From: a virus
DNA length: 26,984 bases
Virus record (IMG/VR): IMGVR_UViG_3300042522_000822
Span: 1-26,984 of that record
Strand: one strand, 5' to 3'
Shown: positions 11,516 through 19,362 of the stretch, in pieces
Numbering within the stretch: the first letter of the stretch is position 1
Layout: the number at the start of each line of letters is the position of its first letter
Made by a program: the position numbers and the translations under genes
The notes under the pieces: model-generated
What the model was told of the DNA's origin: nothing
The model's database searches: none
Seen by the model: only the letters and a program-made list of their open reading frames with translations

Positions 11516-11681
11516 GGTAAACAAATGTTACGGATTTCTCATAAATCTTAACATTGTCAACACCCCTTAAACCGAGACCTCTAGGGTGTATAAATTACGT
11601 CTCTCATACCCAGTCTGAGGGTGACTGGGGAATAGTATCACCACCATTTCCCTGATGGTCTTACTACTCTTTTAAGAAAAA
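11516..11681 (+). promoter_or_regulatory. structured psbA 5' leader
   Basis: The leader of about 160 bases has several potential stems: ACACCC/GGGTGT around 11563-11590, CCCAGTC (11609-11615) with GACTGGG (11623-11629), and ACCAT/ATGGT around 11642-11658, just before the start codon. A second late-like box, TATAAATT, is at 11589-11596. No ORF is seen here. A cis-regulatory RNA (for example of the PhotoRC type described near cyanophage and cyanobacterial psbA) is plausible but not confirmed by eye. Confidence 0.5.
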
Positions 11682-18723: not shown

Positions 18724-18753
18724 TTGGATATATATGGTAACTAGGGGTAAAAT
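18724..18753 (+). promoter_or_regulatory. candidate promoter of the riboswitch region
   Basis: TAAAAT (18748-18753) is a good -10; a weak -35 TTGGAT (18724-18729) lies 18 bases upstream. Transcription would start about 18760, exactly at the 5' edge of the first aptamer. The -10 sits within the inverted repeat TAGGGG/CCCCTA (18742-18762). Confidence 0.45.
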
Positions 18754-18761
18754 AATCCCCT

Positions 18762-19024
18762 AACGTTCATCCTATGACTAAAGCACTTTTGCTTTTAGCA
18801 TGGGTTCCACTTCTTTTTATTTCTACGACACAATTTGCTATATCTAATCAAGTGACAATAAGTTGTGACGCAGCGTGGGAACTAATGGACATCGTTAAAA
18901 ACGACGATGTAGTAGACCAGAGAAAAGAAGACCGATTGCTATTAGAACTCCGAAAGGATGTTGTGAAACTTAAGTGCTAAACAATTCAATAGGACGGAAG
19001 TAAGCCGACTCGGAACGGAACGTT
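18762..19024 (+). ncRNA. glutamine-riboswitch-like aptamer split by an ORF (aptamer 1)
   Basis: 5' half AACGTTCATCCTAT (18762-18775) and 3' half ATAGGACGGAAGTAAGCCG...GGAACGGAACGTT (18989-19024) contain the conserved bases of the glnA/Downstream-peptide glutamine aptamer: CGTTCATCC, GGACGGAAGTA and GGAACG. P1 pairs 18762-18768 with 19018-19024 (7 bp, perfect). P2 pairs TCCTAT 18770-18775 with ATAGGA 18989-18994. Another stem, AGCACTT (18782-18788) with AAGTGCT (18972-18978), closes the insertion. The intervening bases carry the ORF at 18774. The known 3' GAAGGAACG is altered here to GGAACGGAACG, so ligand binding is uncertain. Confidence 0.6.
18774..18980 (+). CDS. 68-aa secreted or membrane-anchored protein encoded inside aptamer 1
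   Basis: The ORF starts with a signal-like segment (MTKALLLLAWVPLLFISTTQ, then FAISNQ) and continues with a charged region (ISCDAAWELMDIVKNDDVVD, QRKEDRLLLELRKDVV) ending LKC. Two Cys could form a disulfide. ATG 18774 lies within the P2 left strand of the aptamer, about 14 bases from the predicted transcript start, with no Shine-Dalgarno, so folding of the aptamer would hide its start codon. The stop sits in the closing stem. No family is recognised. Confidence 0.65.
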   Translation: MTKALLLLAWVPLLFISTTQFAISNQVTISCDAAWELMDIVKNDDVVDQRKEDRLLLELRKDVVKLKC

Positions 19025-19062
19025 CATCCTCTTAGAGGACGCAAAAGCCGACTGAAGGAACG
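19021..19062 (+). ncRNA. glutamine riboswitch, glnA/Downstream-peptide type (aptamer 2)
   Basis: The element reads CGTTCATCC, hairpin TCCTC-TTA-GAGGA (19027-19039), the core GGACGCAAAAGCCG, and GAAGGAACGC. P1 is CGTTC (19021-19025) with GAACG (19058-19062). These are the invariant parts of glutamine aptamers of cyanobacteria and cyanophages, and, as in Downstream-peptide RNAs, a short peptide gene follows (19094). AAGGAG at 19081 is 18 bases after the aptamer, so control of translation or of early termination are both possible. Confidence 0.85.
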
Positions 19063-19093
19063 CTCTTTAACTTAAAAACTAAGGAGAACCCTA

Positions 19094-19231
19094 ATGTCTA
19101 AAGTCGTATACCGTGGTGTTGAATATGATACGCAAAAGCGTTTAGAATATCAACAACAGATGATGCAACAACCTCAACAATACAACGAAACCTATCGTGG
19201 TGTTAAATTTGTAAAGGAGGGGCACAAATGA
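19094..19231 (+). CDS. 45-aa riboswitch-controlled peptide with two YRG motifs (DUF4278-like)
   Basis: The peptide contains VVYRGVEYD near its start and ETYRGVKFV near its end, separated by a Gln-rich stretch (YQQQMMQQPQQYN). Paired YRG motifs are characteristic of small cyanobacterial DUF4278 proteins and of peptides following Downstream-peptide RNAs. AAGGAG lies seven bases before the start. Its TGA overlaps the next ATG. In cyanobacteria small glutamine-riboswitch-controlled proteins regulate nitrogen metabolism (for example glutamine synthetase inhibitors); a similar action here is inference. Confidence 0.8.
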   Translation: MSKVVYRGVEYDTQKRLEYQQQMMQQPQQYNETYRGVKFVKEGHK

Positions 19232-19329
19232 ATACTTACTTCGTTCGTTATCTTAAGAAAAAAGCAAAGAAGGAACAACTCCTTCACAATGCACAACTGA
19301 ATATGGCAAAGCAACCACAAGTTGTTTGA
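19228..19329 (+). CDS. 33-aa basic peptide
   Basis: ATG 19228 overlaps the preceding stop and follows AAAGGAGGGG, a strong ribosome-binding site. The product (MNTYFVRYLKKKAKKEQLLH, then NAQLNMAKQPQVV) is a basic amphipathic helix. It is followed by a strong terminator, so it closes the riboswitch transcript. No family is recognised. Confidence 0.65.
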   Translation: MNTYFVRYLKKKAKKEQLLHNAQLNMAKQPQVV

Positions 19330-19335
19330 TGCTCT

Positions 19336-19362
19336 GGGGGGATTGACTTTCCCCCCTTTTTT
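19336..19362 (+). terminator. rho-independent terminator after the riboswitch peptides
   Basis: GGGGGGA (19336-19342) pairs with TCCCCCC (19350-19356), followed by six T's. The loop contains TTGACT, as in the terminator at 1602. Confidence 0.92.

Follow-up and report, generated by a model that had tools for sequence, protein, structure and literature searches.

We describe a glutamine (glnA-type) aptamer that is wrapped around a complete gene in a viral DNA of 26,984 bases (the window, which is the whole stretch analyzed). The two halves of the aptamer flank a 68-residue ORF that occupies the loop of the P2 helix. Comparison with relatives indicates that both aptamer halves and the closing of P2 over the gene are conserved and covarying, with the start codon in or at P2, and codon comparisons indicate that the inner ORF is a real protein-coding gene under purifying selection. 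The locus appears to be a variant within a known riboswitch class, set apart by its architecture.

Organization of the locus

The window is a virus record whose ORFs read as the photosystem II D1 and D2 proteins. A PhotoRC-II RNA (11549-11643, 82.4 bits) lies just 5' of the D1-like ORF, a placement known from cyanophages; taken with the D1/D2-like ORFs, it makes a T4-like cyanophage the most likely source. The locus comprises, in order, the split glutamine aptamer 1, the compact aptamer 2, a DUF4278-like ORF of 45 aa, an ORF of 33 aa and a terminator, with the following features:

18725..18753, +, putative sigma70-like promoter, TGGATA, 17 nt, TAAAAT; 9/12 of the consensus, a level at which chance matches occur
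18742..18762, +, palindrome TAGGGG-N9-CCCCTA around the -10 box, from sequence
18764..18769, +, aptamer 1 P1 5' strand CGUUC plus A, including mapped ligand-contact positions C1 (18764) and G2 (18765)
18770..18775, +, aptamer 1 P2 5' strand UCCUAU, pairing with 18989-18994; covariation in relatives
18774..18980, +, inner ORF of 68 aa in the P2 loop, ATG at 18774, stop at 18978-18980
18989..18994, +, aptamer 1 P2 3' strand AUAGGA, from sequence and covariation
18995..19017, +, aptamer 1 core and P1 3' strand CGGAAGUAAGCCGACUCGGAACG, with mapped contacts G22 (18996), C58 (19016) and G59 (19017)
19019..19066, +, aptamer 2, compact glutamine aptamer, RF01739, 39.2 bits, E 2.3e-5
19021-19025/19058-19062 (P1) and 19027-19031/19035-19039 (P2), +, helices of aptamer 2
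19081..19086, +, Shine-Dalgarno AAGGAG of the downstream ORF, from sequence
19094..19231, +, downstream ORF of 45 aa, DUF4278-like (YRG motifs), from Pfam and PHROG comparison
19228..19330, +, short ORF of 33 aa overlapping the end of the DUF4278-like ORF, from sequence
19336..19362, +, intrinsic terminator closing the unit, GGGGGGATTGACTTTCCCCCC TTTTTT

In the family register, aptamer 1 has a P1 of 5 bp (18764-18768/19013-19017) and a P2 of 6 bp (18770-18775/18989-18994), and the A and U of the inner start codon are the final two bases of the P2 5' strand and paired in it. An earlier sequence-only reading had proposed just such a split by a complete ORF, with the inner ATG inside the left strand of a 6-bp P2; the halves, the ORF and these pairings are all present. 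The window has a single match to the split pattern CGTTCATC-N200-230-GGACGSAAGTA, and 100 shuffles have none. Two further helices of that reading fared less well. Its 7-bp P1 (18762-18768/19018-19024) exists as the pairing of the single-sequence minimum free energy (MFE) fold, but we reject it as the functional register, as it borrows the 5' strand of aptamer 2 and needs the spacer GGAACGGAACGTTC, which reads otherwise in most of the relatives shown, e.g. GGAACGGATCGTTC. Of 23 close relatives, 19 can form its additional stem (18782-18788/18972-18978) with 6-7 pairs, yet there is neither an excess over shuffled partners nor compensatory change; the stem recurs because the codons are conserved, and we do not retain it as a conserved feature.

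Identity of the split aptamer

A search of the window with Rfam recovered aptamer 2 (39.2 bits against a gathering score of 35) and left the split copy unmatched; as the RF01739 model has no room for a 213-nt loop, this miss reflects the search as much as the RNA. The split aptamer has the P1 of RF01739, CGUUC/GAACG. Glutamine contacts C1, G2, G22, C58 and G59 in the structure of the glutamine-I aptamer (PMC5393176, PMC6698751), and positions mapped from the 5DDP construct of these studies indicate that the window keeps all five contacts (18764, 18765, 18996, 19016, 19017). The inner gene sits at the P2 loop of the glutamine-I fold, and the crystallized aptamer carries a GAAA loop in place of L2 (PMC5393176). 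Of the loop-E type core GGAAGUA...GAAGGAAC with P3, the split aptamer keeps GGAAGUAAG, with CUCGGAACG on the 3' side; aptamers in the first position of tandem pairs depart from the consensus here, having CUCGGAACG in place of GAAGGAACG. Even the compact first-position forms reach at most 35.6 bits with RF01739 (L001), just over the gathering score of 35. Aptamer 1 is probably best described as a variant of RF01739 and not as a plain member. Membership of Glutamine-II (RF01704) was considered and rejected: the scores of compact phage copies, 24.6-28.8 bits, fall short of the gathering score of 33, and pairs are broken; the window scores 21.3 bits, and the pseudoknot and 3' helix of the model are not recovered.

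The downstream ORF scores 19.1 bits against Pfam PF14105 (DUF4278), below the cut-off of 25.3, and matches phrog_5049 with E 1e-10. A YRG ORF lies downstream in 159 of 167 relatives, mostly 29-37 nt after P1, in many of them preceded by its own Shine-Dalgarno sequence.

Distribution of split aptamers among phages

A search of GenBank phage DNA gave 43 records, the match mostly starting at the aptamer 3' half, of which ten were read. Tandem aptamers with ORFs in both members were observed in P-SSM4, P-HM1 and P-HM2, and also in S-TIM5, Sf-CH11 and P-RSM4; DSL-LC02, DSL-LC03 and S-SRM01 have an ORF only in the second aptamer, the second aptamer of P-SSM7 is split, and S-CREM1, P-TIM68, S-PM2 and Bellamy carry tandem aptamers without an inner ORF. 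The inner ORFs are annotated as hypothetical proteins in P-SSM4, P-HM1 and S-TIM5, and unannotated in DSL-LC03 (L004 1537-1689) and Sf-CH11 (L312 1501-1701). P-SSM4 also has a manA RNA (L009 1019-1204, 184 bits) immediately before its split tandem.

Two scans of IMG/VR with 3'-half patterns added at least about 180 further loci. The matches listed include at least 157 distinct split aptamers from ocean and freshwater viruses of cyanobacteria; 57 of them occupy the first position and 100 the second. The tandem pairs (at least 147 among the matches listed) comprise 54 compact-split, 40 compact-compact, 30 split-split and 23 split-compact arrangements, the last being that of the window. The length of the P2 loop is bimodal among the matches listed, either 9-42 or 137-228 nt with none between, and a 5' partner lies at one of these distances for 327 of the 328 listed 3' halves with enough upstream sequence. 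Two further scans that left the P1 3' strand unspecified gave 204 split sequences, of which 201 have GGAACG at a fixed place; of the other three, two run into a contig end and one has GCAACG there. Compact and split forms of other phages have identical cores.

The split form is absent among 122 glutamine aptamers of cellular genomes, found by their canonical core, in which P2 and its loop span 7-80 nt. Canonical glutamine aptamers also occur in contigs labelled SAR86, Gammaproteobacteria and Alphaproteobacteria (L197, L204, L212, L240 and others), in contrast to the statement of one review that they are restricted to cyanobacteria. At L168 (1690-1887, -), an inner ORF of the first-position family lies inside a second aptamer, which suggests that inner genes move between tandem aptamers.

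P2 pairing is maintained across the enclosed gene

In second-position aptamers one strand of P2 (3') is translated and the other (5') belongs to the untranslated leader. Of 75 distinct strand pairs, 75, 73 and 73 form pairs 3, 4 and 5 of this helix, where independent columns would give 59, 35 and 38. The mean P2 is 6.2 bp as against 3.7 bp with shuffled partners (largest of 5000 shuffles, 4.3 bp), and the paired fraction drops from 0.99 to 0.32-0.61 once the partner is shifted by one or two bases. Disjoint pairs of close relatives differ by 25 changes in P2, of which 22 preserve the pairing, two of them by change on both sides, and three do not. Relatedness, which the shuffles remove in part, contributes to these counts and to the codon counts below.

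The same dependence is visible in the encoded proteins. The codon before a conserved Asp (GAC) near the C-terminus is Ile or Val with leader UCU (42/42), Lys, Arg or Glu with leader UCCUU (19/19) and Trp with leader UCCC (13/13), and the matching leader bases sit some 140-190 nt upstream. As a C-terminal residue here tracks an untranslated leader, RNA pairing accounts for it and protein function does not.

First-position aptamers display P2 covariation of the same kind but weaker, with a mismatch or bulge at pair 4 in 12 of 42; the weaker signal is partly due to some of them bulging before a longer helix that spans the whole start codon. A second-position scan limited to ATG offset 10 gave no excess of P2 pairing over shuffling, since P2 hardly varies there, and P1 is invariant across the collected material and hence gives no covariation signal. 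The sequence-only reading had staked itself on covariation of the two halves in relatives, and for P2 this is what we find.

The inner ORF as a gene

The inner frame is open for more than 25 codons in all 157 split aptamers among the matches listed, giving ORFs of about 49-73 codons, and in all 157 the ATG, at an offset of 9-13 counted from where P1 begins, lies in or at P2. The pN/pS of interior codons is 0.24 in frame, alike for first- and second-position ORFs, and 0.87-2.09 in the other two frames; pN is below pS in 370 of 370 compared pairs, which are not independent of each other.

The encoded proteins share a simple plan. Exactly two cysteines, 31-41 residues apart, are present in 154 of 154 distinct inner proteins among the matches listed, and the rule holds in 121 inner proteins from later scans. 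The window protein has a hydrophobic N-terminus and cysteines C31 and C68, and those of relatives likewise start with a short hydrophobic stretch. AlphaFold predicts helices at 31-43 and 49-65 with the cysteines near helix ends, at low confidence (pLDDT 66.5, pTM 0.40). No Pfam family matches the inner proteins; several are covered by PHROG families 6471 and 504, both of unknown function. The window protein has a close family of at least about 22 in IMG/VR and no direct homolog in GenBank phages by tblastn. Among 386 cyanobacterial genomes, one (G327) encodes homologs of inner proteins, with two matches; the match that was read (L520 1477-1776, +) is a free-standing ORF of 99 aa outside any glutamine aptamer, and hence the protein family is not necessarily tied to the RNA.

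Start, stop and transcription signals

With its own 3' half, the start codon has a mean predicted pairing probability of 0.77 (first position) and 0.66 (second), falling to about 0.43 and 0.39 with the 3' half of another phage. In full-length folding, P1 reaches 0.81 and 0.77 and P2 0.59 and 0.76 (first and second position), above shuffled or swapped sequence. For the window alone, single-sequence folding gives P2 a probability of 0.30, and the MFE structure takes another register. At the other end of the gene, among the matches listed, 97 of 100 second-position ORFs stop at the UGA or UAA of GACUGAAGG and 29 of 57 first-position ones at the UAA of GNAAGUAAG; the other first-position ORFs stop at the P2 end or, counted back from it, 2-14 nt earlier (14 in the window). 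Given the usual ribosome footprint, a terminating ribosome would cover or touch the aptamer 3' half.

In a set of 154 upstream regions, the distance from a -10-like box to P1 is mostly 7-10 nt, and 77 of them also have a good -35 at a spacing of 17 nt. In the window these signals would place the expected transcript start near 18760, about 14 nt ahead of the inner ATG; a start downstream of 18775 would have spoken against the sequence-only reading, and the promoter-like elements lie upstream of that position. Palindrome arms of at least 6 bp are present in 106 of the 154 regions as against about 6.5% of shuffled ones, and differ between phages while staying complementary (GGTC/GACC, TGTGTTA/TAACACA, GGTATG/CATACC, TAGGGG/CCCCTA). 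This palindrome around the -10 box could be an operator or, with a transcript start more distant from P1, an RNA hairpin. In relatives, the region 25-45 nt 5' of P1 repeatedly contains TTGACTATATA or TTGCTAAATA, which resembles a -35 hexamer that overlaps a late-promoter-like TATATA/TAAATA box.

A proposed reciprocal switch and its alternatives

We posit, as the probable reading, that glutamine closes the aptamer and thereby hides the inner start, that ribosomes translating the inner ORF prevent it from closing, and that the downstream ORF responds in the opposite sense, making the locus a reciprocal switch. Transcription would start at or just before P1, which would let ribosomes engage the inner ORF, with hardly any leader ahead of it, while the 3' half is yet to be transcribed. 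Were glutamine plentiful and initiation to pause, P1 and P2 would close and bind glutamine, hiding the inner start codon and turning the inner gene off; conversely, a ribosome on the inner ORF would travel to a stop in or just before the 3' half and so hold the aptamer open. Glutamine binding to glutamine-I and -II riboswitches raises expression of the downstream gene (PMC6316151, PMC6698751), and by analogy the DUF4278-like ORF should respond oppositely to the inner gene; this response is the least certain step. More tentatively, and with rather more doubt than conviction, we put forward a general form of the proposal: an aptamer may enclose its own target gene such that ligand and translation compete, glutamine and ribosome traffic are read together, the inner and downstream genes are opposed, and the P2 loop serves as a slot for exchangeable small genes.

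The split aptamer might instead be a one-way OFF switch for the inner gene, leaving the downstream ORF under aptamer 2 alone. All four combinations of compact and split aptamers occur, as if the inner gene were optional, the downstream ORF has its own Shine-Dalgarno sequence in many relatives, and ribosome sites buried in an aptamer core are known (PMC2258182). We nevertheless consider this unlikely, given the many inner ORFs whose stop lies inside the 3' half, where it would couple translation to aptamer folding. That glutamine sensing has been lost, with P1 and P2 only damping inner-ORF translation or protecting the mRNA 5' end, is in our estimate quite improbable: the off-consensus core of first-position aptamers and the ambiguous single-sequence folding of the window would agree with it, but the mapped contacts C1, G2, G22, C58 and G59 are all kept and compact and split forms have an identical core.

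It is most improbable that the P2 loop is simply a tolerated cassette site for small genes, kept by recombination between tandem copies and devoid of regulatory meaning. P2 covariation across the ORF and the leader-dependent codon both stand against it, even if P2 is naturally variable in cells (7-80 nt) and the second aptamer of L168 holds a first-position-type ORF. As for chance, or a decaying duplicate of the second aptamer beside an unrelated ORF, the failure of Rfam to find the split copy is what could be said in its favor; against the relatives, the 0/100 shuffle matches and the pairing statistics its probability is negligible, and we count it as already refuted.

Relationship to known systems

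The locus shares with Glutamine-I (glnA, type 1, RF01739) the P1 sequence, P2, the core (apart from its off-consensus 3' side) and the ligand-contact nucleotides, together with the tandem occurrence and the DUF4278-like downstream gene; unlike the 122 cellular examples of that class, the phage P2 loop encloses a whole ORF that starts in P2. With Glutamine-II (Downstream-peptide, type 2, RF01704) it has in common a related binding site and a short peptide gene, but that class has its peptide ORF downstream and a pseudoknot of its own. Group I introns carry ORFs in peripheral loops of structured RNA and resemble the locus in having an ORF in a helix loop, whereas here there is neither splicing nor a homing enzyme and the inner product is a small two-cysteine protein. 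In riboswitches with a ribosome site buried in the aptamer (PMC2258182), as would be the case here, the ligand-bound fold directly blocks initiation; in those the gene lies 3' of the aptamer, while here the whole gene lies between the halves. Weinberg et al. 2010 (PMC2864571) described glnA RNAs in tandem and, for the Downstream-peptide motif, the peptide ORFs that follow it. Papers on cyanophages mention glnA RNAs in their lists and are silent on any ORF inside them, and we found no account of a gene-enclosing aptamer in the literature covered, Klahn 2018, Ames and Breaker 2011 and supplements lying outside its scope.

Conclusions

An aptamer of a metabolite-binding class can enclose a complete gene; we found no description of such an arrangement. 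Standard RNA family searches miss the split form, and such elements are consequently under-counted: the isolated phages P-SSM4, P-HM1, P-HM2, P-RSM4, P-SSM7 and S-TIM5 carry it, and their records are silent on it. The aptamer and the cysteine pair together define a family of small phage proteins. The locus is a natural and compact system for the competition between the ribosome and ligand-driven folding on one RNA, and provides a lead on how cyanophages may read the nitrogen state of their hosts.
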